A program made the translations under genes and the position numbers. Positions 1 to 61,640 of a DNA stretch of 64,000 bases are shown in pieces. The notes under the pieces were generated by a model, which made no database searches, was not told the DNA's origin, and worked only from the letters and a program-made list of their open reading frames with translations. Source of the stretch: Anarhynchus alexandrinus (Eukaryota > Chordata > Aves > Charadriiformes > Charadriidae); the NCBI GenBank assembly GCA_008711295.1, contig VUYV01000120.1, positions 1,191,468 to 1,255,467 on the forward strand, written 5' to 3'. The first letter of the stretch is position 1, and each line of letters begins with the position of its first letter.

Positions 1-888
1 TTCTTGTGGCATTTCTCTTTGAAGCTGCTCTGGCTCCGTGCCAGTGAGCGGTCACAGACTGATCTGCAGCCGCCGTACATGCTCGCCACGTTGCTGGACC
101 CCATCTGCTAACAGACACGACTGGACTCGATGCCAAAATTTGCATCAGTGTCCTCCTCTCTTTCCTGCTTCTATGATCGGTATGGCATTTTGCAGACCCA
201 AAAGGATTTTATCTTTTTTTTTTTTTAATTCTATTTCTTGCTTTCCAGAAAATGCAAATTGTTGCTGTTTTAAGTGCAACAGGTGAGACTGCATTGAGAG
301 AGCTGCAGTTCAGCACCAAGGGATATTGTGTGTCTGTGAGGGGAAAGCCACCTTCTGGCATCTTGTCCAGCAGCAGTCCTACATCTTGTCCTCAGAGCTT
401 GCTCTCTCTAGCTAATAGTTTGTCCTGGTTTTGATAGCCATCTGCCTCCTGTTTTGTGCAGGTTATCCAAGGATACGAAGCAGGAGGACTTATCTTAAGT
501 GCTGGTAGCGTCAAAGACATGTGGGTTATCATCTGAGGCATGAGTTGTGAGCATGAGAAACGGTTGGTTTAAATCAGACACGCAAAACTGTTGAGAAATG
601 TGGTAAGCCCCTGTGAAGCCTTGCCTCCTCCTCGTCCTCCCACATCCCAGTGCATGCAGGCCCTGTCTCCGTTGCAAAATTGTACAAATAGCCAGGAACC
701 CAGCTGAAGTGAGGGAGGGGAGAGGGTGAGTCCGCAAGAACATGAAGAAGAAAATGAGGAGGAGTTGATTTTTCTTGACGTCTTCCACAGGCTGACCTTT
801 GTCTTCAGCTTCTGTGGAGAGATGATCTTATTTATCAGCTCCTTGCAGATTCCTTGTGAGATGCACGCAGAATGGATCCCAAGACTCA

Positions 889-948
889 GATGGATGGATA
901 GAGGGATGGATGGATAGATGGAAGGATGGATGGACAGATGGACAGACA
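889..948. repeat. (TGGA/GGAT)n microsatellite
   Basis: Imperfect tetranucleotide tract of TGGA units interrupted by TAGA and CAGA variants. It produces artefactual repetitive open frames on both strands that should not be taken as genes. Confidence 0.9.
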
Positions 949-19193: not shown

Positions 19194-22100
19194 TCTATTA
19201 AAAAAACATTTATGTATTGGAATTTTATACTGGCAATTGGGAAACTGGCCAAAGCTCTGCAGAGATGTGCATTTAATCTCTATATGATTTCTATCTCCTT
19301 TTGGGCAATATACATGCCCTGACTCCATCATTTCTGTTGCAACAGACTTGCACAATAAAGGTGCTGAATAGCTCCTGCCTGTTCTGTGAAGAGGCAGACT
19401 GCTTCAATAGGGAGAATTGTTGTCTAACAATTGGAAGGTGCCCATACTGGGCTTCTTGCATCTTTCCTGTTCTGAGCCAGTGTGTATTATGTTTTCAGAT
19501 GAATGCCTGGATTTTTCTGAGTTGAGAATAGACAGATCTCTGCTTGGGTTTCATCCTTGGTTTCTAGTAAATGTCTAAAGGCATTTTAAATTTAAGACCT
19601 TAACCTTGTTTTCAGAGCACTCAATGAGTCATTTAAATGAACGGAACTCTGAATTCTGGGGGATTTTCAGCAAAATTTCTGATTCTTGTTATTTTCTGGT
19701 CTTGATGCATGATTTTCTTCATGCCTTGCTATGATGTACAGTCATATTTTACTTTGAGAAGCTGGATTCACCTCAAGCCACATTTGTTCTTTGAGAATAT
19801 CAGCATCTTTCTGGCTAATCCCTCTCAAGGAAGCCATTAACTTAAATTGTAAGTTGTACCTCCATTTTTTAATGACGCATGCTTCTTATTATTAACGATC
19901 ATCTTATCAGTGTATCTGTCTTTCTGGGGATATATTATTTCATGCTTCGGCATCTCACCACAAAAGTACAGCTATGGTTTCCAAACACATATGTGAGAAT
20001 AATTGAAAGAAAAATTTTGGAAGTCTTTATTCAGGAGACACGTCTCCTAAATCATGTTGAACTGGTAATTAAATGGATTCAGTAATTGCCCTTACTTTAA
20101 CTTAGCAAAATGAGCCTTTCCAAACCTCAGGTAGAGAATTACCCTAATCAAGTCCAGAACCCCTTGTGATAGGAAATGCTGAATTTTCTAAGCAGATTTG
20201 GAGCTGTTTGAGTTCATATCCTGAGGTGGAAGTGAGGCTGGCTGCTGGGATGCAAGAGCATGGACAACGTTCTTTGGAGCACAGCATTTTTGCTTCCCCC
20301 CAACTTTTTAGCCCCAGAATAGCTAAATATTGACTTTGCTAGCATGGAACCAGCAATGTTGCCCCAGGCCGGTCCTCAGCCACACATGCCAGGGATCCCC
20401 GGGATCCCCTTTCCTCACAGTGTGAGATCTGGTGTAAAACCTCGCAGGAAATTTTCAAGACCACTTTGAATCCTGCTGGAATGCTACAAGGGGACTTGGC
20501 TCTGATTTTTTTTTGTTTCTTCAGATTAGATCGTGAGGGTTGGAGAACAGGCCTTTGGAGAGTGATTGATTAGTTATGTTTGTTAAACCAGTTCTGAGCT
20601 GGATCCAGTGCCTTTTGGTCACGAGTCAGGCGAGAAAGCACATGTCCAAGTGTGACAGAGTGGAAAATAGCGTGTGTGGCCCATGTTTAGTAATTTCTTT
20701 AAAAAAAATTATCCCACTGGCTATATGATGTTACGTTAGCCAAGCTGTTCCACTGCTTTGAGTAGTGTCTCTGCTTCCAGAAAAAAAACCCTAATGTCTC
20801 CAAATGAACTGGCTATTAATTGAAGGAGACCTCAAAAGATCCCTAAACAATCCCATACACTAATTAAAGACAGATCAAAGTGAGTTTCTCCTATTCTCTC
20901 TGGAGGCAGTTGAATTTCTGAGGGGCTTCTTTCAGAGGGAAAGATAATTCCTCATGGCATTTCCTTGGTTTCAAGTGCAGAAATGCACACTGTTTGCTAG
21001 CTCGCAGCAAAGACGTGGGTGATGTATGAGGAGCAGCCCAGACTGAATGCAGGAACATGCTGCTGCCATTTAATCCAAGATAATATATTTCATGATCTTA
21101 CTGCTGGAGTTTTTCAGCAACTGGTTTCATGTATGGGAAAGTATTTGGCTTGCCTTGGAAACATTTCCCATTTGAAAACAAGCTGCAGTGGGAGAGCTGG
21201 CAGCTTCACAGGAGGCTGCTCTGTGAAAATTGGATTTCCCTGAGCGGCGCGGTGGGGCTGGGTCATAGCGAAGGCTGTTGAACAGCTCCCGGGAAAGGCT
21301 CCAGGCTGTGCGGATCTGCCGATGGAGAGCCCCACCGCCTGGTCTCTGGAGGATTGCTGCCGCCTCGCCGCTTGGCAGAACAGGGATTTCGGAATGGATT
21401 TTATTCCTGTTTTCTGTCCCTTGGGCAAAGGGAACGTGCAGAAGAAGAGCTGGAGCTTGGCTTACACTCATGAATTAAAAGTCTTGGGACCATTTTAAGT
21501 CTCCAGCTGCGGAGGAGAAGCTCTGTTCTAACTTTGCTCTCAATTCAAGATTATTTTTCTTAAGCTCAGCAAATACAGAACTACTAGCTGGGTCTAATTT
21601 ATCTGTAAGCAATACCAGGACACCTAGTCCTGGTTGAGAAAGCACCAGACCAGGTGTTTGCCAAAGGTCTCATGCGTGAGCTCAGGTGATACACTTAATT
21701 TTCTCTGTGGGGCTCCTACTATCTGCACAGAAAGCAACAGCTCCCCCTGTCAGGGGTGATACGAGGACAAGACCTGCTGTGGTTGTGTGGTGCTCAGAGT
21801 ATGATAATGCTGGAAGAGGCTGCTTGCTCCAGCCCTGGAGAGATTTGTTGCTGTGCCTAAGCCCTTCTGGAGACAGCTTTATTGTTCAGCGTAAGCATGA
21901 GGAACAATATCGCATCCAAAAAAGTTCCTCTCCCACCCTGGCTTGCAGCTTTCCTGGGCTTTTCCCTTGCCTTTCCCAGCAGAGAGGACCACACACCCTT
22001 TGGTGCTGGTTCTTTCTTCCACATATTTGCAGCTTCTACCTCCACCCCTTCTGCCACATGAGGCACTGCCTACCCTCAAGGCTGCTGCAGAGTGGGCCTG

Positions 22101-25521: not shown

Positions 25522-25880
25522 TCAATCCTCACATGTTATGGCAATAGTTTTGCTATAAGAAAAAACATTTTTTTCATTTTTAATGTGTTCAGAATCTGCT
25601 GCTAATGACTCCATTTTCTGTGTATCCCTTCCAGCACGTGGTGGTTGCAATTCTTCTTCTGGAATAAACTGAGCAGGCCAGCATCTTCTTTGTTGGCTTG
25701 CTTCATTGTCCTTACTCACCTTTGCAATTTGATAGAGATCCTTGACAATTATTTTCTCAGTATCTTCTAGTAATGTTGTCAATAAATTAAATAGGAGAGC
25801 AATCCAGGCAAGACCAAAAAGAATCCAAATGGCCACCAGCATTCGGTAGTAGGAAAAGTAATTCCTGCCCGGCTGTTTAC
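25522..25880 (-). CDS. KCNK16: KCNK16 exon 5 (TM4, C-terminal tail, stop)
   Basis: Begins after TCTGCAG and completes the split Gly218 codon. It codes the YYR motif (R230, putative extracellular pH sensor), TM4 (WILFGLAWIALLFN) and a charged cytosolic tail ending at the stop at 25,522. The tail shows no recognisable interaction motif. Confidence 0.88.
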
Positions 25881-28800
25881 CTGCAGATAAGGGGAGAGAA
25901 AGAAGAAGAAAATTAACAAGTTAAAATTGCTTTGGCTGTTTAAAGTCAGCCAGCATAATGGATGCATCAATGTATTTTGCGTTGTGTACTTTAAGGTGAC
26001 TTTTTTATTATAGTGGAGTGTCTCATCTCCCCAGCATTAGGTTAACGCTGGGTACGTCTCTTGCTGTTGCTGATATATGCTGGCACAAACATGCTGGCCT
26101 CTCAAAAAGATATACCAGAATTGAGGTGAATTAGCAGCAGAACAGGATATTTTTTTTCCCCTTTAGGATACCAATCCCAATTCAACCTCTGCAGGTAAAT
26201 GCAATGATGTGGGAAGTAGTGTAAAATTGTATTGTATGATCTTGAAAATATTCCCAAACTCCCAAAGCACAAAAAGCAGAGTACAGTGGGCCACTATAAC
26301 CACACAACTGTTACTACCTAGGTTATTGTAATTCTGTGTATTCCTATAAAGTGTGATTATAACCTATATAAATATTTGCTTTAAATTACAGGTAGCCTTG
26401 ATCATTAAAAGAGAATAGTTGCATTTCCTACTTTACTTTTGAATGGCTTCAGGAGCTTTCTCCATTAAAAATCTAGGTGACTAATGAGAACCCACCGATA
26501 CATGCCAAGAAGACAACTTCCTGTGTTAGAAACCAGTGGACCAAAGCTTATTTCATGCAGTCCAAACCTCTTAGCATCGGCCAGGATAGCACACCCGCTT
26601 TTCTGCATGGGTCATTTCTTTTCTTTCTTCAGACATCAGCAACCCACCAGCAACATACAGAGAGTATTTGATCCTACTGCACTTAGTCCCACATGAAGTT
26701 ATCATCAGGATACAGCTGATATGGCTCTGGCATTGGCAGGAAAACTTGGTGATATTGCTTATTGAGTGTTATAAGTCACTGTCAAGGGTGACTCCACATA
26801 GTAGATAACACAGCAATGTGCATGGACACGGAGATCACCACAAACCTGGTGGATCATTTCCCATTGGGAAACTGCCCAGAAGGAGCCAGAATGCTGGAAA
26901 CTCTTTCCAAGTCCTGCAGTGCTCTGTATTGCACAGATCAATGCACAGGATTTCTGTACTTCATCATGCGAGAGCTCTGGAAATGAGGCAGGAGTTGGCT
27001 GGTTTGTCCTCATGGATAGATATCCAACAGCTGTTTTTTTCTTCTACTGGGGTTGAGTAGGCAGAGGGGATGCCAGCCTTGCTACAAAGCATCTCCTTTT
27101 GTGCTCTTATCTGAAGTTCATGATGTGGCGTTAGCAAAGCAACCAGTAATATCTCTGTAATACTAACTCAAAACTGGACTTCAGCAGGGCATAAATTCGG
27201 TTTACAGCCAAAGGGGAGTTTCACCCTAGAAGTATCAACTATGTGTAAATGTATTACAAACAGTTAAATCCAGACTGCCCCCTTCCTAGGATGTCTCCCT
27301 ATCCAAAACAGGCTTTATTTCATGCTTGAAGTGTAACGGCTACAAACCAGTTCTGAATTACTAAAATGCAAATAAACTCAAACCTGTTCTGTTCCACCTG
27401 GCCAGTGCAAATCCATTTGTCATCTGTAATCAATTCTAAATGCATAATACTCAGAGCAGTCGTTGATTCTCCCTGTTTCGTTGTGAAGGTGTGAGGAATT
27501 AAACTCATCATCCTTTTATCACTGTTGTTTAAGGCAAATTGAGATAAGGACTGCAGGGAAAAATATTTCAGCTCCAGTTAAGTCATCCTAATAAAGATGA
27601 AATCACAGAGCCAGGAGGCCTATCTAATTGTTATTTTTTAACTGTATTTGTAAGATAACATGGCTGCAGAGGAGGAAAGTGCTGGTAGTGGAGGTCGTGG
27701 TTTTCAGGCTGTGACTTGCTGTCATTATTTTAAAACACACTTGTAATTTGCACAAAGGAAGACAATGCACCAGTTTGATGTCCACTTTTTCTCCTGCATG
27801 GCGCCAGCAGCTCTCCACCTTCCTATATTCCACGTCACTGAAGTTCGAGGTGCGCAGTATCACACAGGCCGGGGTTATCAGTCCTACAGATGGTTAGGAA
27901 AGAAACGCCTGTGCCCTATTGTCCTCCACTGCAGTGACAAAGCTTGGCCCTTGGAAAAAACAATAAGCAAAGAGCCCACTCTTGCGTGATACAGATTCCT
28001 TGCTGATACCCGAGTTCTTTGTCATGTTCATGGCAATATGGCTTAACTACTGTTGGAGACGAAGAATCTTTCTCTGGATTATGTGAAAAGGGGAATTTCA
28101 GGGGACACTGGTTTCCTGTGCTTTGCAACAAGAGGGAGCAGTAAGCTGGCTGGGATCACTTGGGGAAATGTGGCCTAATCAACTCATTGCCATTGCATGA
28201 ATTAACCGTCAGCCAGGCAACAAGATCACTAAACGCATGCAAACAAGCAAGATACCAACTGGATACTCAAAGCACCTCCCAGCCTCTTTAGCAGACTCAG
28301 AGAAATTAAGGTCAGCAGGGAACATCAGACAATTTCTGGAAAACCTTGTTGGCTCCCTCTGCCAAAGACCTCAGCCTAATGTAAGAAATCTTTCAAACAC
28401 ATGGCAAGGCTGCCAGCCAGTCTCCAAGGCCCCTCTTGCATCCCTTTAGGGCTTGAAAGCCTAGGGTTTGTTGAGTGGTGGATGTCTGTCCATCAGAAAG
28501 GGATATGAGGCTTCCAGATTCTCTGTAGGGACAGCACTGCTGCTCAACTGTTAGCTTCAGAACTTCCTTCTCATATCCCCACTGAAGAGAAGTTCAGGCT
28601 GGCAAGATGCTGGCAGGGCAGGTTGTTGTGGAGAAATCTTTGATTCTCCATGGAGTCCAGGTGTTTGATTGCTTCTTCTGTGGATACTGATTTGGCTCAT
28701 GGTAATCATTTTGGAGTTCGTCTGGAAGCTTTTTACATGGAGAGTGTATTTTGGTCAGCAGATCCCGGGAAGTGTTTCAAGATGCACTCCAGCATGCAGG

Positions 28801-34800: not shown

Positions 34801-35636
34801 TTTTCTTCTGCATTGTAGCAGATAGAGCTAGGAAATACCAAAGATGAAGAGACAACCGTATTCATTCTCAGCTTCCTGTGCCGTGACCAGAAACCCCTTT
34901 CCCTTGGCCAGGCTACCTGTTTCAGTTCTGCAGCATCTTCAAAAAGTAAACCCTGACTATGCTACCTGCCTTGTAGTGATTTGGGCTGCTTTTTTTTTTC
35001 TCACCCAACAGATTATTTCAGACCTTGCTGTATTGTTCCATTCTGCTGTGGCACTGTTGTAAGTGGCAACTACACCCATTCGTTTCAGATAGACTCATTT
35101 TTCCTGCCATGCCACCCATTGTAGATGAGCACAGCCTCACCGAAAGCCGAATGAACAGGAGGCAAAACCCTGAAGATTCGGGACATCGCGGGATGGGGGA
35201 TGTTAATAGCTAACACACAAAGTTCTGTCACAAGAACAAAGTTCTGTACACAAGCTGTATTTGCCAGCAGTGTGACCCATGTGCTCAGACTGGAGAATAG
35301 GCTAGGAGGTTGCTAAAATCATCCAAATGACCACATCAGTAGGAATGCAGTGGAAGGTATCGGTGTAGCAAGGCTGAGTAGGAAACAACATCTGATGGGG
35401 AAAAAAGAGGGAGAAAGGGCTTCTGCAGGGCTGGCACTTACCTTCATAAACTGCTCCATCTCTGCCACCGTGAGGTGGGTGAAGTTCTGCAGAAAAGCCT
35501 CCTTCATCTGGGCAGCTGCCATTTTCTCCTGCTTCTCAGCGGTCCTCTCCAGCACCTGGAACACGGCAGCACCCACGAGCAGGTAGACAAAGTAGCCGGC
35601 CACCAGCAAGCCTGTCTGCAGCTTGCTACTGCACAT
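25522..35636 (-). CDS. KCNK16: TALK-type two-pore-domain potassium channel, complete 5-exon gene
   Basis: This is a pH-sensitive background K+ channel of the plasma membrane. Coding exons run 35442-35636, 33380-33500, 31161-31327, 29435-29603 and 25522-25880; every junction is GT/AG, phases agree, and the total is 1,011 bases (336 residues plus stop), near the family length of about 310-335. Seen in the product: TM1 about residues 8-28; extracellular cap with N-glycosylation sequons at 51, 66 and 80; first filter TIGYG at 104-108; TM2 with GIPLN at 128-132; TM3 about 166-186; second filter TIGFGD at 209-214; TM4 about 231-251; hydrophilic tail of about 85 residues. Arg230, just before TM4, sits where TASK-2/TALK channels carry their basic extracellular pH sensor. 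The NWDF..SFFFAGTVV stretch and MEQF in exon 1 favour KCNK16 over KCNK17, although the end of TM4 is somewhat KCNK17-like. Introns hold little beyond one old CR1 piece. No promoter motif was recognised. Confidence 0.85.
29435..29603 (-). CDS. KCNK16: KCNK16 exon 4 (TM3 and second filter)
   Basis: Begins after TTTTTCAG and ends before GTAAGG in phase 1. It codes TM3, the EGWSYSEG entry to pore helix 2 and the second selectivity filter TIGFGDYVVG, the strongest single family signature in the window. Confidence 0.92.
31161..31327 (-). CDS. KCNK16: KCNK16 exon 3 (first filter to TM2 and cytosolic loop)
   Basis: Begins after CCATAG with GCTATGGC, completing the first GYG filter, and ends in phase 0 before GTACTT. 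It codes TM2 (GIPLN motif) and a basic cytosolic loop joining TM2 and TM3. Confidence 0.88.
33380..33500 (-). CDS. KCNK16: KCNK16 exon 2 (cap and first pore helix)
   Basis: Begins after a pyrimidine-rich CCCAG acceptor and ends before GTAGGT, splitting the first glycine codon of the first filter (phase 1). That split position is typical of KCNK genes. It contains sequons at residues 66 and 80 and pore helix 1. Confidence 0.88.
34196..34305 (+). repeat. Old CR1 3' fragment in KCNK16 intron 1
   Basis: GATGAACATCTACCAGAG, then GGGGGTCTGACTAGATG and CCTCCAGCCCTATCATC follow the order of the 3' end of an old CR1 subfamily. It is diverged and lacks the terminal octamer repeats. Confidence 0.5.
35442..35636 (-). 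CDS. KCNK16: KCNK16 exon 1 (start codon, TM1, cap helix)
   Basis: Codes residues 1-65, starting at the ATG at 35,634-35,636 and ending in phase 0 before GTAAGT. It carries TM1 and the start of the extracellular cap, including sequon N51-F-T. The upstream in-frame sequence offers no better family-like N-terminus, and the distance from Met to TM1 suits the family. Confidence 0.85.
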
Positions 35637-35838
35637 GGCCTTTGGTGGGACACAGCAAGGGACAGGGAGTGAAAGGTGGCGATTGGTAAAGCCCTCACGC
35701 TACTGGGAAGCCTCCCCCAGGCAGGAAGAGCCCTCCCAGCTCCGGTTTCCTCTGGGATCCTGTGCTGAAAGGGACAGTGAGCTGTCAAATACATTAATGG
35801 TGAAGTTGGGAAAAAAAAACACAAAACAACAAACCCAG

Positions 35839-39314: not shown

Positions 39315-40519
39315 TGACTAACCTGAACCCATTCTGTGACAAGGTGACCTGCTTAGTGGATGAGGGAAAAACTGTGGATGTTGTCTGCCTTTGGCACCAT
39401 TTTCCACAGCTTTCTCCTCGAGAAACTGGCTGCTCATGGCTTGGACAGGTGCACTCTTCGCTGGGTAAAAAAATGGTTGGATGGCTGGGCCCAAAGAGTG
39501 GTGGTGAATGGCGTTAAATTCATTTGGCAGGTGGTCACAAGTGGTGTTCCCCAGGGCTCAGTATTGGGGCTGGTATTTTTGTTTAGTATTTTTGTCAATG
39601 ATCTGGACGAGGGGACTGAGTGCATGCCAGGAAGTTTGCAGACAACACCAAGATGGGTGGGAGTGTTGATCTGCTTGAGGGTAGAAAAGCTGTACAGAGG
39701 GATCTGGACAGGCTGGATCAATGGGCCGAGGCCAATGGTATGAGATTCAACAAGGCCAAGTGCCAGCTCCTGCACTTGAGTAACAACAACCCCATGCAAT
39801 GCTACAGGCTTGTGGAGGAATGGCTGGAAAGCTGCCTGATGAAAAAGGACCTGGGGGTGTTGGTCGACAGCCAGCTGGATATGAACCAGCAGTGTGCCCA
39901 GGTGGCCAAGAAGGCCAAAAGCATCCTGGCTTGTATCTGAAATAGTGTGGCCAGCAGGACTAGGAAAGTGATTGTACCTCTGTACTCAGCACTGGTGAGG
40001 CTGCACCTCAAATAATGTATTCAGTTTGGGGCTCCTCACTACAAGACAGACATTGAAGTGCTGGAGCATGTCCAGAGAAGGCCAATGAAGCTGGCAAGGG
40101 GTCTAGAGAACAAGTCTTATGAGGAGAAGCTGAGGGAACTGGGGTTGTTTAGCCTGGAGAAAAGGAGGCTGAGGGGAGACTTTATCGCTCTCTACAGCCC
40201 CCTAAAAGGAGGTTGTGGCGAGGTGGGGGTCAGTCTCTTCTCCCAAGCAACAAGTGACAGGAAATGGCCTCAGGTTTCACAAGGGGAGGTTTAGATTGGA
40301 TATTAGGAAAAATTTCTTCCCCAAAAGGGTTGTCAAACATTGGAACAAGCTGCCCAGGGAAGTGGTAGAGTCACCATGCCTGAAGGTATTTAAGAGATAT
40401 GTACACGTGGTGGTTAGGGACACGGTTTAGTGGTGGAGTTGTCAGTATTAGGTTAATGGCTGGACTCAATGATCTTAAAGGTCTTTTGCAACCTAAGTGA
40501 TTCTATGATTCTATGATTT
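39315..40519 (+). mobile_element. CR1 LINE, 5'-truncated (copy B)
   Basis: The longest CR1 in this cluster. It retains ORF2 reverse-transcriptase sequence with the [10 protein letters not shown] motif (about 39,540), a degraded FADNTKMGG box (39,620-39,940 frame), and the C-terminal [15 protein letters not shown] piece at 40,058-40,294. It ends TTCTATGATTCTATGATTT. Frameshifts make it inactive. Parts are near identical to copy A (36.9-37.25 kb) and to copy C (44.6-45.4 kb), which is inverted relative to it. Confidence 0.92.
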
Positions 40520-48703: not shown

Positions 48704-50212
48704 TCAGTGTCCACACAACAGCAGTCTTACAAGCTGACATTTCAGCTCATTGAACTCATGCAGTGCCTTGGCATGGGCGTCCGGATCCTGCACCAGGTGC
48801 TGGAAGAGGTTGCGTGGCTTGGCTGTCTGTAAGGCTGGGGGCAAGATTATCTCCTCAGGCATGTTCTCATTGCCAAAGAAGAAGTGATTGAGGCGTTTCT
48901 CCTCCAGGCAGGCACACAGGTACTCCATGATATCCTGCAGACGCTTCACAGCTCCCCTTTTGCTCCAGCTTGACAGGGGTAGGGTGTTCAGGAGGTGCAT
49001 CACAACTGTCTTCAGGGTATAGGTGGAAAAGTCTATGCCCACCAAGACGTGGGCACAGACCTGCAGACAATGGAGGTGGAAGCTGTTATGCAGAGCCTAC
49101 CTGGCCACATGCCTGAAGAACTTCACCTCTGCCACAGCGTAGCTCTCCGGCCACATGGTGCTTGGGGTGAAGATAGCGTCTGAACTCTGGCTGGTCACAA
49201 AGATGTCCGAGTCGACTTGCTGCACCCCAGACAAAATCTCAATGATGATTCTTTCCTGACTGGGTTTTGTCACCTGGAATTTGCAGGAGCGGCTGCAGGA
49301 CAGCATCTTTAGACGGCAACTGGACGCCTGAGGCAAAAGCACCCAGGCTGATCTCACCAATTGATGGAACCAGCGGGCAGTTTTCTGCGCATCTAGGTAG
49401 AAGCCTGTGCAGAGGGTGTTTAGGAGACTGTGTTTCTCATTCCTCTTCGGCTCCTTCTCAGGGTGGTGGAGGAAGCATGGCACGTCCCCCAGCAGACGCT
49501 CCCTCATGCAGGTGCACCGTGGCTCCACGCAGATGCGGAAGTTCCTTGCCATCGTCTCCCCAGCATCGCACAGCTCCAGGTGGAAGTTATACCAACGGGG
49601 AGGCTTCATGGGCACGAGCACATGGTAGATGACATCTTCACAGGGACTCCAACCTTCGAATACCCTGCCCACCCCGATGACTGATTGCAGCTCTGGGAAT
49701 AAACTATTTAACAAGAGCGATCTGAAGACAAGGATGAAGTTGTCCATCAGGTCCTTCACAGTCACGCACTCTCTGGCTGGGTTCTGAACTGGCCAACAGA
49801 ATTGTGTACTAAAAGACAATTCAAAGTCAAATTCATAATCACTGTTTTCTTTCCCCTCGTCCTCCAGCTGCTCGCTGGCGCTGCTGGAGCTCTCCTCGTC
49901 ACTGCTGTTGTCTGGCTGATGGCTCCTTTTCCTCAGCCACCAGTAGAGCCCAAAGAGCAGGACCGCGACTCCAGCAATGGCCCAGAACTGCCACTGCTGC
50001 AAGGCAGAGAAGAGCAGGGCTCCCCAGGCACAGAGGTTCTGCTGCTGGCTCCTCCGCTCCATCACCTGCCGCAACCGAGTCATCTCCCAGCTCAGCTGCT
50101 GCTCACGCTGCTTCATGCGCTTGAGCGTGGCCTCATCCAGCTCATCACCCACCAGGTGCGGGAGAAGGATGATGCTTTGCAAGAGCAAGACGAAGAATTT
50201 GATTACATCCAT
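48704..50212 (-). pseudogene. ITPRIPL1: ITPRIPL1-like gene copy with one in-frame stop and lost promoter/exon 1
   Basis: ITPRIPL1 belongs to the Mab-21/nucleotidyltransferase-fold family of membrane-anchored proteins related to the IP3-receptor-interacting protein. From the ATG at 50,212 the frame gives a hydrophobic N-terminus (KFFVLLLQSIILLPHLVG), a coiled coil (about residues 25-55), a TM segment (QFWAIAGVAVLLFGLYWWL), an acidic Ser/Glu linker and the family core: VEPRCTCMRERLLGD, LCTGFYLDAQKTARWF, SCKF, MWPESYAVAE. Codon 372 (49,097-49,099) is TAG. The same frame then stays open to 48,704 with family-typical C-terminal sequence (LKTVVMHLL, RLQDIMEYL, NLFQHLVQDPDAHA), giving 502 codon positions, close to family length (about 555). 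Only that stop breaks it. Upstream, the segment holding the TATA box, exon 1 and intron in the 57.3 kb copy is missing. It may be a young pseudogene, a polymorphic null, or an assembly error at one base. Confidence 0.8.
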
Positions 50213-50400
50213 GGCCTGCAGGAGGAGAGAAGGGGTTCTCAATGCCCCCACCGTGACACATCCCCTGTGATGTCACAGGTGCCAGACCACATCACAGGCA
50301 CGCCTGCCAACCAGCCCCGCCCTTCGGCCCCACTCCAGCTCAGCCACTCACAGCTGCCCAGGGCAGCCAAACCCCAACCCCACAAACCATAGACCTTCTG
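50213..50400 (-). promoter_or_regulatory. Promoter remnant of minus-strand ITPRIPL1-like copy
   Basis: Reading toward the gene, this segment matches 56,805-56,920 upstream of the plus-strand gene: GGGCAGCTGTGAGTGGCTGA, a GC box (GGGCGGGGC) and the CCTGTGA-TG-TCACAGG palindrome at 50,264-50,279. It then jumps directly to the equivalent of the intron's 3' end (CTCTCCTCCTGCAG) before ATG. The TATA box, first exon and about 260 bases of intron are absent. Confidence 0.65.
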
Positions 50401-50539
50401 GGCAGGACTGGGCTCCCAGGGGCTCCCTTAACAACGCAGACAGAAGCCCCCTCAAACCCTTACCAGACATAAATGGGGGTGATGTGACCAGTGGATGCTT
50501 TGCTCCTTGAGATTCTGTCCCGTGAGGTGGAGTGGGCTC

Positions 50540-50785
50540 CCTTGGTGCTGCCTCTGAGCTTGTGGTCGTGGGTGTACTCTTGGTGCCTTCATGACACCAC
50601 TGGGTGGGTGGTGCGATGGGGCCTGTCCATGGCAGGATCTCTGTTCCTGCTGTGCCACTGTGAGAGGACGTTGCTTCCAAAGAGGTGTTTCCCAAGGGTC
50701 ATGAGGGAGGGGAGACACCCGGTGCTTGCTGGGCCCACATTCCTTCTGCGACACCCTTAGCTGTGTCTCCAGCTCTCAGAGCCAC
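50540..50785. repeat. Inverted repeat arm, left (upstream flank of ITPRIPL1-like copy)
   Basis: Its reverse complement aligns with 53,490-53,725: shared segments include CTCTTTGGAAGCAA, GTGGCACAGCAGGA, AGAGATCCTGCCATGGAC and GTCATGAAGGCACCAAGAG. Small indels separate the arms. It shows that the minus-strand and first plus-strand ITPRIPL1-like copies are halves of an inverted duplication. Confidence 0.75.
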
Positions 50786-50867
50786 TGCTCTCCATTAGCT
50801 TGGCCCGAGCCTCCTGCTGCGGCTTCAGCAAGAGCAGCCAGACCCACTCTGTCCTCATGGTACTTTT

Positions 50868-50962: not shown

Positions 50963-51106
50963 CTTGAGATCTGTGGGCGTCCACTTCAGCCTCCCTATGG
51001 CACTGCGGGAAAATAATGGCAGATTGGTGAGGAGGATTGTAAACAAGCTCAAATGACTCGCACCTGAGGTGCTGGACAACACATATATCACACTAATTGT
51101 TGTTCA

Positions 51107-51485
51107 GCCTTGTGTGCTCACAAGTAGAATATCCGCACTTAGATAACGTAAGCCTGGGATGGACTCAGGGACACCTTATACAGCATACATGAGATCAGTG
51201 CCTTGTTGTTGAAGAAGATCAAAGCACAGTGGAAAACTACGCCTGCTCGAACCCTTGAAAAGCAGACAAGAACCGCAAGTCAGAGCTCACACGCTCCTGC
51301 TAACAAGGACTTTCTCCCTCTCTGCGGTGCCTGTGTCCCCTGCTTGTGTCCCTCTGCCCGGGCATAGGTGTGGAGACTCCCCGATTCGCGAGGTATTGAG
51401 ATTAAGTTTGTTCTTTGTCTTTCATCCACGGTCTTGTGGTCGTTCCTGCATCCTGCCCAAGTCAGCTTACGCAGGCACCTAAGAA
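51107..51485 (+). mobile_element. LTR-like segment
   Basis: GTGTGGAGACTCCCCGATTC followed by a TTGAGATTAAGTTTG near-polyadenylation signal and a T-rich TTCTTTGTCTTTCATCC stretch resembles an R-U5 region of an endogenous retrovirus LTR. No gag, pol or env sequence is adjacent and the ends are not defined, so it would be a solo or partial LTR. Confidence 0.4.
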
Positions 51486-51944
51486 ACATGCAAAAACATG
51501 GAGGGTCATGAATTAGTTCAACTACCCCAAAACAGGAGCATGGTCAGGCAGGGGAACCTTCCTTACTCTGAATTGGCACTGACTCTGTGGCAGCTGAGTA
51601 GTGTATTTGGTTTGTTTCACAAGGTTTGTGGTACCTGGGGGGCTACAGAGGTGGCTTCTGTAAGAAGCTGCCAGAAGCTTCCCCCATGTCCGATAGAGCC
51701 AGTGCCAAACAGCTTGAAGACAGCCCTGTGGCAGCAACAACAGTTGTGCTTGTGATAATATATTTAAGAAGGGGGAAAAAAATGGTGCCCAACAGCAGCT
51801 GGGGCAGAGGACTGAGAATATGTGAGAAAAACAACTCTGCAGACACCAACGTCAGTGAAGAAGGGGGGGGAGGAGGTGCTGCAGGTGCTCCAGGTGCCAG
51901 ACCAGAGATTCCTCTGCAGCTCATGGTGAAGACCATGGTCCCCC

Positions 51945-52365
51945 TGCAGCTCATGGAGGTTAACAGTGGAGCAGATATCCACCTGCAGCCCAAGAAGCAT
52001 CTGATGCTGGAGAAGGTGGATGCGCCTGAACACATTTGGGGGCTTCTCCAGGGGTTGCTGCTAAGAAATTTCCCTTTGTGGTGGACATCACCAGAGTGTT
52101 TAACTTGCTCTACCTCTACATGGACCTTGTAGAGCACCACCTTGTTGGAGACTTCACAGTTCCATTACTGCACTGCATTCCAACCACTGGGAACAAAAAT
52201 GACACCGTTATGGTGACATATGCTAAGCCTCACGACATGCTAGTAAACAACCCGCACACTGGAACGATCAGCAATGAAATAAAGACTGACCAGAACGAGC
52301 ATGTCTCATTTTGCCATAGGCAGGGAAGGTGGTTGTAAAGCTGCATCTTCAGCCTCCAGAAGCCT
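51945..52365 (+). pseudogene. Maverick/Polinton-type structural protein remnant (C-terminal part)
   Basis: The plus-strand frame from about 52,036 to 52,335 reads FPFVVDITRV, then LYLYMDLVEHHLVGD and FTVPLLHC, PHDMLVNN and ISNEIKTDQNEHV. This spacing of aromatic/acidic (LYxYxDxVE), VGD..VPLL, xxPHxxxV, IxxxIxxDxxxxV and a final GKVxVKLH block is what I know from the C-terminus of one conserved structural protein of Maverick/Polinton and adintovirus-like elements. The last block (GKVVVKLHLQ, about 52,323) is in another frame, so at least one frameshift is present. A weaker stretch in a third frame (GADIHLQPKKHLMLE, about 51,970) may belong to the same protein. The role would have been capsid assembly; here it is a decayed fossil. 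Recognition is from memory of family patterns, not a search. Confidence 0.6.
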
Positions 52366-52472
52366 CTGCCAGTTTAAGAAATGATGACAAAATGGTAGCA
52401 GTAAAAAATTGTGGAGACCTGTCCTCGTACATGAATGACTGAGCCCAACCGGGTTTTCAAGGCTTTGCTGCC

Positions 52473-52718
52473 ATGTCTGACAAGAGTGTTGGAGGTATAT
52501 TTGGCAGCTTCTTAGAAAGGCTCTCTCACATTTGAAAAGGGTGTTAGAAATTGTTACACCCCACATTAAAAGCACCACTCAAGTTATTGCAAAAAAATAT
52601 GTTTGCACATGTTGCCAATGTTGTCGTGGACAAGTTGGAAATGCTGGCAAGTCAGGAGGGCTCAGGACTTGCTTATAGTCAAAGAAAAATAGTTAAAAGA
52701 AAGACTGCTATGTCATGA
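52473..52718 (+). pseudogene. Maverick/Polinton-type short core-like protein remnant
   Basis: An ATG at 52,473 opens MSDKSVGGIFGSFLERLSHI before a stop. The following sequence continues in two other frames with amphipathic residues (LEIVTPHIKSTTQVIA, then MFAHVANVVVDKLEMLAS) and a basic end with QEGSGLA and RKIVKRK before TGA at 52,716. A small Gly-rich-start, amphipathic, basic-ended protein is typically encoded between the two jelly-roll-type structural genes of Maverick/Polinton elements. At least two frameshifts make it non-functional. On its own this would be weak; its position between the two neighbouring blocks is the argument. Confidence 0.5.
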
Positions 52719-52905
52719 CCCCAGAGGGAAAGGCCTCCCAAGCCCTTGAAAGAAAAAGGGAGAAGGGTGCCAGATAACAGTCTGACCAGGACAAGAGAAG
52801 AAAAAGAACAAGAAACCAGACTGAACGGTGCAAAAAGAAACAGAAAACCCACAGAAAGAGTTCCTGTTCTACTGCTGGAACGGAAATACATTTGCAAAGG
52901 GATGG

Positions 52906-52992
52906 CAGCTTCATGGCAGCTCAGAAGGCTGCACCAAATCCCAGCCGGACTTGTTTGAAGTGTCCCTGGCACAGCCCAGTGCTGAGAAATGC
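52906..52992 (+). pseudogene. Maverick/Polinton-type second structural protein remnant (N-terminus only)
   Basis: The frame reads HGSSEGCTKSQPDLFEV and then AQPSAEK. The pattern of His-x-x-SE-x-C-x-KS-x-x-DLF followed by a short Thr/Pro/Gln-rich stretch is the N-terminal signature of the other, larger structural protein (the F54H12.2-like family) of these elements. A plausible ATG lies a few bases upstream at 52,902 but out of frame by one base. The match stops near 52,992, where GC-rich unrelated sequence begins, so only about 30 codons of a protein usually above 400 residues remain. Confidence 0.55.
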
Positions 52993-53170: not shown

Positions 53171-53489
53171 CCTACCTACCAGGGACCTGACCAGGACCTG
53201 GAACCCCCCCAGCCAAGGGGCAACTGAGGAGGGCTGTGTGTGCANCCCCAAACCCCTGCACAGCAAAGTGGCCACTAGTATGGAAATTTATTTCTTCAGC
53301 TTGTAGCCAGGGTCACAGCTGGGATGCCAGTGCCTCAGCTCTTGCCAGGAATACCAGCAGGTTCATCTAGTCAGGCACCATTAACCAAGCAGCGGTCCCC
53401 TTGAAGGCCTGCTCTGGAGATCTGGAGAAGAGAGAACAAAAGCAGGTGCGGATCAGCTCACAGGACTTGACCAGAGACAATGCAGACGA

Positions 53490-53725
53490 GTGGGTCTGAG
53501 AGACAGAGGAGCAGCTAAGGCTGGGTGAGAGGAATGAGTGTGCGGCAGGCACCGGGCACATCTCCTGCTGCACCCCCTCATCACATCTCTTTGGAAGCAA
53601 TGTCCTCTTGCAGTGGCACAGCAGGAGCAGAGATCCTGCCATGGACTGGCCCCATCCCACCACCAGGGTATACACCACCACCCACCCATCAATGTCATGA
53701 AGGCACCAAGAGCACACCAATGTCC
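53490..53725. repeat. Inverted repeat arm, right
   Basis: Reverse-complement partner of 50,540-50,785. Between the arms lie about 2.7 kb containing the LTR-like segment and the Maverick-like remnants. Confidence 0.75.
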
Positions 53726-53751
53726 GAGAGGACTCGGCCATCTTTATGAGG

Positions 53752-53836
53752 GTCTGGCGGGTCTTGAAAATCTCCAGAGAAGGGGACTCCACAACCTCCC
53801 CTCTGTGTGTTCCAAGCGGAGAAATGCCTGTCCTCT
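53752..53836 (-). mobile_element. Short CR1 fragment
   Basis: GGTCTTGAAAATCTCCAGAGAAGGGGACTCCACAACC-type sequence (seen in pieces at 53,760-53,795) is the reverse complement of a conserved CR1 ORF2-end region. It is fused directly to ITPRIPL1-like sequence at 53,841 and supplies that copy's apparent start codon. Confidence 0.7.
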
Positions 53837-53840
53837 GGAG

Positions 53841-54681
53841 GACCCAGCAGCAGAGCCTCTTTGCCTGGGGAGCCCTACTCTCCTCTGCCTTGCAGCAGTG
53901 GCAGTTCTGGGCCATTGCTGGAGTCGCGGTCCTGCCCTTTGGGCTCTGCTGGTGGCTGAGGAAAAGGAGCCGTCAGCCAGCCAGCAGCAGCGAGGAGGGC
54001 AGTTCCAGAAAGAAGGACAAGCAGGAAAAGAATGATGTTGCATTGGAAGTGCGCAGAGTTTCAACCAAGCCCCTCCAGGATCTGTCAGAAGCGTTCCCAA
54101 TGGTGGAAAAGCTGGTGGATGAACTTCTCTGCATGTGCCGAAAACTTTCCGGGAATAGTTTTGTGCCGCAAGTGCAGCCAGCCGTGGGGTTGGGCTGCTT
54201 CTTCGAAGGGTTGAGTTCCCATGGGCTTCATGCTGTCCACCACCTGCTCGTGCCCCTGAAGCCCCCCCGTGGGCACGCGTTCCACCTGGAGCTGGGCAAC
54301 ATGGGGGAGATGTCAACAACTGACTCCTGCCTCCGCGTGGAACTGGAGTGCACCTGCATGAGGGAGCAGCTCAGGGAGGACATGCTGTGCTTCCTACACC
54401 ACCCCAAGGAGGAGCTGAGGAGAAATCAGGGTGCCAGCCTCCTAGGCACCCTCTGCACTGGCCCCTACCTGGACATAGAGAAAACCACCCGCTGGTTCCA
54501 GATATTGGTAAGAGCAGCCTGGGTGATGTTGCCTCAGTCGAGACACTGCCGTCTGACAGTGCTGCCCTCCAGATGCTCCTGCAAGCTCCGGCTGATGGAT
54601 GCTTCCGATAATACCGTCCTGATTCGGATGAAGTTTGGGGTGCAGCAAGGTGACTTTGAGACCTTCCTGACCATCGAGTAG
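53841..54681 (+). pseudogene. 5'-truncated ITPRIPL1-like copy with CR1-derived start
   Basis: From GACCCAGCAGCAGAGCC onward this is almost base-for-base the same as 57,461-58,301 (constant offset 3,620), covering the TM segment and the Mab-21-type core to the same stop (FETFLTIE). I count three substitutions up to the stop, including Glu/Lys at the residue equivalent to 210 and Cys/Arg at 299. The signal-anchor, coiled coil, promoter and intron are absent. An ATG at 53,746 inside antisense CR1 sequence opens a 311-residue chimeric frame whose first 32 residues are CR1-derived. A pseudogene is likeliest; a chimeric transcript is possible but no promoter is visible. Confidence 0.75.
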
Positions 54682-55030
54682 GCAGCGGCCAGTGTTCCCA
54701 GCAGCAGGACGTGGCCAGAGAGCTGCGCTGCGGCAAAGGGGCCGTTCTCCCAGCACAGGGGCAGGCCTGAAGACACTCCCTGGGGAACTGGTGCCACGGA
54801 ACTGAACCCGCTGGACACAGAGAACACGCTGCTCCGTCGGCAGTGGGAACTGTTGCCGCACCTTTCCTCCGCAGCAAAAGCACGCTCTGCAGAGCAGGAC
54901 CCGATGCAGCTGAAGAGACCGCTGCAAGGAGCCTTGCAATAGAGCCTCCCGTTACCACCTGGACAGTCACCGCCCTCCCTCTTGGAGAACGTCCCTTCCC
55001 TCTGGGAGCTTTCCCCTGTACAAAGATGTC

Positions 55031-55036
55031 AATAAA
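55031..55036 (+). promoter_or_regulatory. Polyadenylation signal of first plus-strand copy
   Basis: AATAAA at the same relative position as 58,651 in the paralogous copy, at the end of a duplicated 3' untranslated region. Confidence 0.65.
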
Positions 55037-55376
55037 TCACTTGTTTGAACAAAGGCTGTGTCTGTGAGTGGCCGTGCATCGCTTTGTTGGGGAAGGCGGG
55101 CACAGGGTGGCGGCTGCTCGGCTGCCCCAGAGTCCAGGAGTGTTTTGCAGAAGCGCTGGTGCAGGGGGCTCTGGCCTCATGATTCACTGGGCTTTGGCTT
55201 CCCAGGCGTTGTAGGTTAATCCCTGTAGGCAGCTTGGCATCACACAGCCCCCAGTGGGACGGTGGAGAGAATGTGAAGGGCACAAGTGGGAAAACTCTTG
55301 GGTTGAGAGCGGACACTTTAGTGGGTGAAACAAAAGCTACAGGCCAGGCAAAGCAAAATAAAGAATTCATTCCCTG

Positions 55377-57299: not shown

Positions 57300-58301
57300 A
57301 TGGATGCAATCAAATTCTTCGTCTTGCTCTTGGAAAGCCTCATCCTTCTCCCGCACCTGGTGGGTGATGAGCTGGATGAGGCCACGCTCAAGCGCATGAA
57401 GCAGCGTGAGCAGCAGCTGAGCTGGGAGATGACTCAGCTGCGGCAGGTGATGGAGGGGAAGACCCAGCAGCAGAGCCTCTTTGCCTGGGGAGCCCTACTC
57501 TCCTCTGCCTTGCAGCAGTGGCAGTTCTGGGCCATTGCTGGAGTCGCGGTCCTGCCCTTTGGGCTCTGCTGGTGGCTGAGGAAAAGGAGCCGTCAGCCAG
57601 CCAGCAGCAGCGAGGAGGGCAGTTCCAGAAAGAAGGACAAGCAGGAAAAGAATGATGTTGCATTGGAAGTGCGCAGAGTTTCAACCAAGCCCCTCCAGGA
57701 TCTGTCAGAAGCGTTCCCAATGGTGGAAAAGCTGGTGGATGAACTTCTCTGCATGTGCCGAAAACTTTCCGGGAATAGTTTTGTGCCGCAAGTGCAGCCA
57801 GCCGTGGGGTTGGGCTGCTTCTTCGAAGGGTTGAGTTCCCATGGGCTTCATGCTGTCCACCACCTGCTCGTGCCCCTGAAGCCCCCCCGTGGGCACGCGT
57901 TCCACCTGGAGCTGGGCAACATGGGGAAGATGTCAACAACTGACTCCTGCCTCCGCGTGGAACTGGAGTGCACCTGCATGAGGGAGCAGCTCAGGGAGGA
58001 CATGCTGTGCTTCCTACACCACCCCAAGGAGGAGCTGAGGAGAAATCAGGGTGCCAGCCTCCTAGGCACCCTCTGCACTGGCCCCTACCTGGACATAGAG
58101 AAAACCACCCGCTGGTTCCAGATATTGGTAAGAGCAGCCTGGGTGATGTTGCCTCAGTCGAGACACTGCCGTCTGACAGTGCTGCCCTCCAGACGCTCTT
58201 GCAAGCTCCGGCTGATGGATGCTTCCGATAATACCGTCCTGATTCGGATGAAGTTTGGGGTGCAGCAAGGTGACTTTGAGACCTTCCTGACCATCGAGTA
58301 G
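57300..58301 (+). CDS. ITPRIPL1: ITPRIPL1-like protein, C-terminally truncated (333 aa)
   Basis: Membrane-anchored member of the ITPRIP/Mab-21-fold family. The ATG at 57,300 lies three bases after a good splice acceptor and matches the start of the minus-strand copy. Residues 4-22 are hydrophobic (signal or anchor), 25-55 form a heptad-like charged coiled coil, 74-92 a TM segment (FWAIAGVAVLPFGLCWWL), 95-125 a basic/Ser-rich linker, and 130-333 the first part of the Mab-21-type fold (ELECTCMREQLRED, LCTGPYLDIEKTTRWF, SCKLRL). It ends at TAG before the WPES motif; the C-terminal helical half seen in the minus-strand copy and in human ITPRIPL1 (about 555 aa) is missing through an internal deletion. 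Acidic residues near HGLHAVHHLLVPLKPP are replaced by His relative to the minus copy (CEDVIYHVLV). Promoter, intron and polyadenylation signal are intact, so expression is plausible; a recently disabled gene is the alternative. Confidence 0.75.
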   Translation: MDAIKFFVLLLESLILLPHLVGDELDEATLKRMKQREQQLSWEMTQLRQVMEGKTQQQSLFAWGALLSSALQQWQFWAIAGVAVLPFGLCWWLRKRSRQPASSSEEGSSRKKDKQEKNDVALEVRRVSTKPLQDLSEAFPMVEKLVDELLCMCRKLSGNSFVPQVQPAVGLGCFFEGLSSHGLHAVHHLLVPLKPPRGHAFHLELGNMGKMSTTDSCLRVELECTCMREQLREDMLCFLHHPKEELRRNQGASLLGTLCTGPYLDIEKTTRWFQILVRAAWVMLPQSRHCRLTVLPSRRSCKLRLMDASDNTVLIRMKFGVQQGDFETFLTIE

Positions 58302-58650
58302 GCAGCGGCCAGTGTTCCCAGCAGCAGGACGTGGCCAGAGAGCTGCGCTGCGGCAAAGGGGCCGTTCTCCCAGCACAGGGGCAGGCCTGAAGACACTCCC
58401 TGGGGAACTGGTGCCACGGAACTGAACCCGCTGGACACAGAGAACACGCTGCTCCGTCGGCAGTGGGAACTGTTGCCGCACCTTTCCTCCGCAGCAAAAG
58501 CACGCTCTGCAGAGCAGGACCCGATGCAGCTGAAGAGACCGCTGCAAGGAGCCTTGCAACAGAGCCTCCCGTTACCACCTGGACAGTCACCGCCCTCCCT
58601 CTTGGAGAACGTCCCTTCCCTCTGGGAGCTTTCCCCTGTACAAAGATGTC
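58302..58650 (+). other. 3' untranslated region with a long open frame
   Basis: After the TAG the same frame is open for 117 more codons, to a TAA that overlaps the AATAAA signal. The first part retains WPES, a remnant of the ancestral coding region; the rest, from GACACTCCCTGGGG, is homologous to sequence that is 3' untranslated in the minus-strand copy. Copy 53.8 kb has an extra TAG in this frame. It is treated as noncoding. Confidence 0.55.
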
Positions 58651-58656
58651 AATAAA
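58651..58656 (+). promoter_or_regulatory. Polyadenylation signal of the 57.3 kb ITPRIPL1-like gene
   Basis: AATAAATCACTTG, followed by a G/T-rich downstream stretch (GGCTGTGTCTGTGAGTGG), the usual context for cleavage. Confidence 0.7.
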
Positions 58657-58989
58657 TCACTTGTTTGAACAAAGGCTGTGTCTGTGAGTGGCCGTGCATC
58701 GCTTTGTTGGGGAAGGCGGGCACAGGGTGGCGGCTGCTCGGCTGCCCCAGAGTCCAGGAGCGTTTTGCAGAAGCGCTGGTGCAGAGGGCTCTGGCTTCAT
58801 GATTCACTTTAGTGGGTGAAACAAAAGCTACAGGCCAGGCAAAGCAAAATAAAGAATTCATTCCCTGCTCCCCTGGTTTGCTGAGCAGACCTGCCTTTTT
58901 GGGAAGCCTTCTGCCTTCCTCGGGCTCAGCTTGAATGCATCACCAAGAAACTTCCTAGCCTTGTGCTGCCCTCAGAGTATTAGCCACTC

Positions 58990-60164: not shown

Positions 60165-61213
60165 TGCTCAAAGGGATTGCTCAAAGTCCCATCCAACCTG
60201 GTCTTGAACACTTCCAGGGATGGGGCATCCACAATTTCTCTGGCCAACCTGTTCCAATGTCTCACCACACCCAGAGTAAAGAATTTCTTCCTAATATCTA
60301 ATCCAAATCTACCCTACTTTAGTTTAAAACTGTTACCCCTTGTCCTACCAGTACAGTCCCTGATGAAGAGTCCCTTCCCATCTTTCCCATAAGCCCCCTT
60401 TAGGTGCTGGAAGGCCACTACAAGGTCTCCCTGGAGCGTTCTCCAGGCTGAACAACCCCAACTCTCTCAGCCTGTCTTCATAGGAAAGGTGCTCCAGTCC
60501 TCTGATCATCTTTGTGGCCCTCCTCTGGACTTGCTTGAACAGGTCCATGTCCTTCTTATGTTGAGGACACAGAATTCCAGGTGGGGTCTCACAAGAGTGG
60601 AGTAGGGGGGCAGAATCACCTTCCTTGACCTGCTGGCCATGCTTCTTTTGATGAAGCCCAGGATATAGTCAGCTTTCTAAGCTGCAAGTGCACATTGTCA
60701 GGTCATGTTGAGTTTCTCATCAACCAATACCCCCAAGTCCATCTCCTCATGGCTGCCTTCGAACCATTCTCTGCCCAGCCTGTATTTGTGCCTGGATTGC
60801 CCTGACCCACATGCAGGACCTTGCACTTGGCCTTGTTGAACTTCATGAGGTTTGCACAGGCCCACCTCTCCAGCCTGTCCAGGTCCCTCTAGATGGCTTC
60901 CCTTCCCTCCAGCATGTTAAACACACCACACAGCTTGGTGGTGTTGGCAAACTTGCTGAGGGTGCACTCAATCCCAACATCCCAACATCCATATTGCCAA
61001 CAATGTTAAACTGCACCAGTCTCAGTACCAGCCCTGAGGAACACCACTCGTCACTGGTCTCCACTTGGACATTGAGCCATTGACCGCAACCCTTTGAGTG
61101 CAGCCATCCAGCCAAGTCCTTATCCACCAAGCGATCCATGGGTCAAACCCATGTCTCTCCAATTTTGAGACAAGGATGTCATGTGGGACAGTGTCAAATG
61201 CTTTGCCCAAGTC
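60165..61213 (-). mobile_element. CR1 LINE, truncated (second subfamily)
   Basis: Minus-strand pieces include [20 protein letters not shown] (60,345-60,548) and the reverse-transcriptase stretch [19 protein letters not shown] with TSGVPQG (61,022-61,210). A short CR1-like 3' end in plus orientation (60,115-60,160) precedes it. The element stops at 61,213, where ITPRIPL1-like sequence begins. Confidence 0.88.
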
Positions 61214-61218
61214 CAGTT

Positions 61219-61640
61219 AGATGTCTTCTTGAATAGTTTCTTCCTGGTGCTGCAGCCAGACGTTGGGGTTGGCAGCACCCCTGAAGGCTGGAGTCCTCAT
61301 GAAGATGATGCTGTCTACCGCCTGTTTGTGTCCCTGCATCGTCTCCTTGGGCGTGCCTTCCACTTTCATCTGGGCACCATGAAGGAGATGACGGAGAGAC
61401 TCCTGCATCTGTGTGGAGCTGGAGTGTACCTGCATGAAGGAGCAGCTGGTGGAGAACATGCTGTGCTTCCTCCACCATCCTGAGGATGTATTACTCCCCT
61501 ATCAGGTAATGGTGCTGCCCTCCTCCCACTACTGCAAACTCCAGCTAGCTGACACCTTCAAAAGGACTGTTTTCATTGTGTTGATGTTTGGCAAGGACAA
61601 AGGCAACTCAGACATTTTCCTTAATGTTTGGTCTGTCACT
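61219..61640 (+). pseudogene. Degenerate ITPRIPL1-like fragment
   Basis: Frames read VFLNSFFLVLQPDVGVG and TPEGWSPHED, then after a shift MELECTCMKEQLVENMLCFL and HHPED, then YCKLQLADTFKRTVFIVLMF and NSDIFL. These align in order with the core of the other copies but lack the LCTG...WVMLP segment of about 45 residues and carry frame changes. It is the oldest copy in the cluster and is fused at its left edge to a CR1. Confidence 0.75.

Follow-up and report, generated by a model that had tools for sequence, protein, structure and literature searches.

Are the short peptide motifs scattered over about one kilobase of the genome of the bird Anarhynchus alexandrinus the remains of a Maverick/Polinton capsid gene block, and how much of the element is left around them? 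A sequence-only reading of the window, that is, of the whole 64,000-nt stretch analysed here, had proposed three decayed blocks on one strand: the C-terminus of one structural protein, a short Gly-rich and basic protein, and the N-terminus of a second structural protein. Vertebrate Mavericks are described as having int - mcp - pw - Mcp - pro, in this order, along a single strand (PMC8097293), and Krupovic et al describe PY as the double-jelly-roll major capsid protein and PX as the penton (PMC4028283). In this paper we compare the locus with two distant relatives of its capsid module and conclude, with a probability of about 0.93, that it is a non-functional remnant of a Maverick/Polinton once integrated here, of which some 0.9 kb of capsid module is left (Table 1).

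Table 1. Features of the window, with positions counted from its first base, and the two relatives used for comparison
Feature	Position	Strand	Remarks
Surveyed stretch, Anarhynchus alexandrinus contig VUYV01000120.1	64,000 nt	+ (capsid block)	capsid block within 51945..52992
Left arm, Mab-21/ITPRIP-like gene region	49117..50796	-	blastn self-comparison, inverted repeats
Minor capsid (penton, PX-type), C-terminal half	52075..52311	+	single frame, no stop; tblastn, blastp
Minor capsid, last conserved strand, GKVVVKLH	52323..52352	+	different frame, after one frameshift
PW slot	52353..52908	+	broken frames; identity from position only
Major capsid (PY-type, double jelly-roll), N-terminus, 24 codons	52909..52980	+	identity to L037/L036
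Right arm, copy of the same Mab-21/ITPRIP-like gene region	53479..55188	+	blastn self-comparison, inverted repeats
L036, capsid module of Maverick type	1-2801		MAG contig titled Breoghania
L037, capsid module of Maverick type	1-2149		MAG contig titled Bathymodiolus symbiont

Six pieces of the window were searched against Pfam and PHROGs and returned nothing meaningful; the lowest PHROGs E-value, 0.015, was for 17 residues, of unknown function, that lie beyond the part showing homology. Neither a piece of the window nor profiles of the relatives matched anything in PDB sequence searches. IMG/VR scans found no relative, and the frames at the IMG/VR matches, in sets of 15 and 20 loci, were inspected by eye and all rejected. 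Capsid homology came instead from relatives retrieved with a degenerate DNA pattern fitted to positions 52930-52976, the choice of loosened columns being partly guided by sequences of the family. This pattern occurs once in the window, as expected by construction, and in 0 of 100 shuffles. Over 84,980 bacterial and archaeal species genomes it matched three stretches: L036, L037 and a third, L038 (Amycolatopsis), which was judged to be chance. Because Pfam holds no model matching even the capsid proteins of L036 and L037, these relatives were used in place of library profiles; they are two only, both distant, and both were retrieved by a pattern fitted to the third block.

L036 and L037 each carry an open major-capsid-type protein that begins with the motif of the third block, and these proteins are 55% identical to each other. 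Immediately upstream on the same strand lies a protein with a motif resembling the first block of the window, cut off by the contig end in L037; the upstream and downstream proteins read, in our view, like Polinton PX and PY proteins. Between them is a short protein, Gly-rich and then basic, which occupies a single frame in L036 and several in L037, where the end of the major capsid also takes up more than one frame. Besides the capsid frames, no frame longer than 186 residues was found in 8000 bases of each contig (of 8358 and 31929, respectively), and therefore both contigs are probably eukaryotic (host) contamination of bacterial MAG assemblies or reference genomes.

The structure model of the L037 major capsid is of low confidence (mean pLDDT 42.1), as is the second model (41.7). 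In the PDB ranking the L037 model places double-jelly-roll capsids first (Sputnik virophage, grouper iridovirus and vaccinia D13, with PBCV-1 and mavirus lower), at a best E of 5.3e-3, with none reaching 0.001, TM-scores below 0.3 and some unrelated beta proteins listed as well. Across the lists, TM-scores of the model matches are 0.36 or less on the query. Fold matches of the minor-capsid model were weak and are not relied on, the best being a Catovirus putative minor capsid protein (E 2.6e-3, probability 0.60). In the viral library the best match of the L037 model is a bracovirus protein of Cotesia sesamiae Mombasa (36% identity, E 2.9e-13); adomavirus LO7 comes next, and virophage and Megaviridae capsid proteins stand lower in the list. 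In the Mombasa strain a viral segment is situated inside a Maverick (PMC3573978), and we infer that the matched protein belongs to that wasp's Maverick.

In the first block, LYLYMDLVEHHLVGD begins at 52108 (+) and GKVVVKLH at 52323 in another frame; the main frame is open from 52030 to 52338, and the homology alignment runs from 52075 to 52311. When the relatives' minor capsid proteins were searched against both strands of the 64-kb window by tblastn, 52075-52352 was matched at E 1.2e-10 with L036 (36% identity) and 9e-8 with L037 (29%), and for either protein the next-best match in the window had an E above 1. In a single blastp comparison with L036, 28 of 78 residues are identical (E 3e-13). 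Frameshift-tolerant scores are 137 (L036) and 107 (L037), whereas the highest among 82 background segments are 45 and 42, respectively, and the score of 137 was reached by none of 300 dinucleotide shuffles, the highest of which scored 72. The alignment crosses the frame break into GKVVVKLH; with L036 it runs as far as residue 246 (35/91 identical) and with L037 as far as residue 122 (31/91). Since the minor capsid of L036 and L037 played no part in finding them, this match is an independent confirmation, and the window does contain a minor capsid (PX) homolog. The N-terminal half was not detected: when minor-capsid residues 1-156 were aligned to 50963-52077, 95 of 111 background segments did at least as well. 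The left end of the proposed block, some 130 bases at 51945-52074, likewise has no detectable homology.

The third block contains HGSSEGCTKSQPDLFEV, within 52909-52980 (+), and is identical to L037 at 13 of its 24 codons and to L036 at 11. Position-restricted scores over the first 40 residues, 57 (L037) and 50 (L036), were each reached by 0 of 165 background segments, and by 0 and 1 of 300 shuffles, respectively. These scores are partly circular, because the search pattern was fitted to this block. In the 14 columns free of the pattern, seven residues are identical to L037 and five to L036, with binomial probabilities of 6.6e-6 and 9.8e-4 at p = 0.06, or 4.3e-5 and 3.5e-3 at p = 0.08. Window-wide tblastn is weaker (E 0.069 and 0.38), and with the whole L037 major capsid 1 of 82 background segments, near 20 kb, outscores the block with 62. 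The assignment of 52909-52980 as a major capsid N-terminus is supported by these comparisons; the homology to a double-jelly-roll (PY) major capsid covers the N-terminal 24 codons only, and the fold is the one suggested by the low-confidence model of L037. No continuation is claimed: downstream of the block, 70 of 255 background segments match the L037 major capsid equally well. A borderline downstream alignment to L036 (9/255 background segments, 14/300 shuffles), which ends near 53447 and is out of line, was set aside.

Elsewhere in the window, 39 residues at 19957-20073 (+) are identical at 15 positions to the interior of the L037 major capsid (tblastn E 0.018) and at only nine to L036. This stretch is possibly a second Maverick scrap and possibly a chance match.

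The middle block is a different case. VGGIFGSF is found at 52488-52511 and the basic RKIVKRK at 52683-52703 (+ strand), so that every peptide quoted by the sequence-only reading lies on the plus strand in the order claimed. As a sequence match, the middle protein scores at chance level. Among the background segments, 40 of 226 equalled or bettered its score against the L036 small protein, as did 47 of 300 shuffles, and 31 of 82 background segments scored as high in the larger-segment test; blastp of 52548-52718 gave E 4.8. With a cheaper frameshift penalty, 13/226 background segments and 20/300 shuffles were as good; for residues 30-85 alone these counts were 38/226 and 24/300. A 27-residue piece of the L037 small protein found its best placement at 52453-52485, away from the VGGIFGSF site. 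The block is assigned to PW solely from its slot and from distances similar to those of the relatives. From first to last, the landmarks cover 822 nt in the window, compared with 752 for L036 and 704 for L037, and the successive intervals are 215, 165, 195 and 247 nt in the window, 210, 178, 225 and 139 in L036, and 210, 160, 231 and 103 in L037, the last being longer in the window than in either relative. The order mcp - pw - Mcp is thus present on one strand, its pw member by position alone.

What surrounds the fragment bears on its classification. Six frames of 40703-63600 gave no Pfam match at E up to 1 for integrase or polymerase-B, and for this reason the locus is filed as a Maverick-derived fragment rather than as a Maverick element. 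In 40703-63600 there was also no Pfam match for packaging ATPase or adenovirus-type protease, a search that decayed or poorly modelled genes would escape. Duplicated gene regions make up the inverted repeats at 49.1-55.2 kb, and the capsid fragment sits in the spacer between their arms. Mab-21_C was found (Pfam 2.1e-07) in an adjoining minus-strand frame at about 48860-49030, and we take this flanking gene region to be ITPRIPL1-like, a family that is expanded in birds. The segment 53837-55188 recurs in tandem at 57457-58808 (+), the 1352 bases being 99.4% identical by blastn, and the inverted copy at 49117-50238 is more diverged than the tandem pair; the whole is a recent local expansion of a Mab-21/ITPRIP-like gene family. 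blastn found no second copy of the capsid fragment in the window. To the left of the fragment, 51060-51480 resembles a candidate solo LTR by eye. Further out are reverse-transcriptase fragments at 39357-39740 (+; Pfam RVT_1 4.3e-07) and at about 61028-61222 (-; 5.8e-08), probably of CR1 type, and minus-strand frames at 25525-25920 and 35322-35699 which look to us like two-pore potassium channel exons, in which Pfam matched no channel domain.

Could the resemblance have arisen by chance in GC-rich intergenic DNA? Taken by itself, the middle block does not rise above chance, and the third, just 24 codons long, reaches no better than E 0.069 in window-wide tblastn. For the first block, however, chance is refuted by an E of 1.2e-10 in the whole window and by a score that no background segment (0/82) or shuffle (0/300) reached, and a pattern made from the third block retrieved contigs whose neighbouring gene matches the first. 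We therefore regard accidental motif resemblance as very unlikely. Of the three blocks of the sequence-only reading, two are above chance against background segments and shuffles, the minor capsid and the major capsid N-terminus. By the criterion that this reading set itself, a match for at least two of the three segments, it stands, although scored against relatives and not against curated profiles. The comparisons support the decayed capsid genes of a Maverick/Polinton, in which minor capsid, PW slot and major capsid follow one another on a single strand with a spacing similar to that of the two relatives; the proposed middle protein is not significant by sequence.

A rival source of the fragment is a different double-jelly-roll virus in which the penton and major capsid genes lie side by side, such as a virophage, a polinton-like virus, an adomavirus or a relative of adenoviruses. 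The L037 major capsid model is indeed similar to virophage and adomavirus capsid proteins as well. Those capsid matches, however, have about 7-16% identity among the rows listed, whereas the protein filed under the bracovirus of the Maverick-carrying wasp strain has 36%; 78 residues of the fossil minor capsid align to L036 at 36% identity, and the gene order published for vertebrate Mavericks (PMC8097293) is the same as here. Such an origin seems quite unlikely. Even smaller is the prospect that the minor-capsid core, as exapted DNA or as a peptide, has been maintained by selection instead of drifting. The first block does keep 78 codons in one frame without a stop; yet its last strand is severed by a frameshift, no N-terminal half is detectable upstream, and the following stretch likewise has 40 open codons in the frame to which it has shifted, which makes the open frame weak evidence. 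A broader version, in which this core is host-constrained and is part of a class of capsid-only Maverick relics that integrase and polymerase surveys miss and that has gone uncounted, is hardly probable either; were it true, 19957-20073 would be another such scrap.

We thus favour a Maverick/Polinton that would have inserted once, long ago, and then decayed neutrally. Frameshifts, stops and small indels have disrupted the capsid genes. The minor capsid gene survives as its C-terminal half, the small PW gene as a slot and the major capsid gene as its first ~24 codons, while integrase, polymerase, ATPase, protease and terminal repeats would be gone or beyond recognition. The fragment is presumably not expressed and may simply be carried along as spacer DNA between the inverted Mab-21/ITPRIP-like gene copies. 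On its own, the locus is a modest candidate addition to the Maverick fossil record. It shows that capsid-only scraps can be recognised even without integrase and polymerase, the usual search baits, and if such scraps are common, Maverick copy numbers and ages in birds and other amniotes are underestimated.

In L036 and L037 the minor capsid, the small Gly-rich/basic protein and the major capsid are adjacent on one strand, the two capsid genes being placed as in the window on either side of the PW slot; the frames are much longer in these relatives, though also broken in places. Adintoviruses have been proposed as animal viruses within the broad group to which Mavericks belong, and are distinguished from Mavericks by polymerase and accessory genes; Pfam found no polymerase-B remnant at this locus. 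The Mavericks described from vertebrates (PMC8097293) share with it the one-strand order of minor capsid, then PW slot, then major capsid, but here only ~0.9 kb of the capsid module is present. Barreat and Katzourakis (2021) called 96% of vertebrate Maverick copies defective, counted bird copies among the fossils and reported Mavericks in other bird lineages (PMC8097293), and bird Mavericks are elsewhere described as all seemingly degraded (PMC9683012). Because candidates in the 2021 survey were defined by co-located integrase and pPolB hits (PMC8097293), a capsid-only scrap may be absent from it. Guizard et al (2016) reported Polinton remnants on chicken chromosomes 2 and Z, and in turkey (PMC4992247). 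The chicken remnants likewise consist of broken genes in a bird genome, with a major capsid gene on chromosome 2, but keep integrase and/or polymerase frames, for which this locus has no match. With bird Mavericks already in print in these accounts (PMC8097293, PMC4992247), the locus is one more fossil of a known type.
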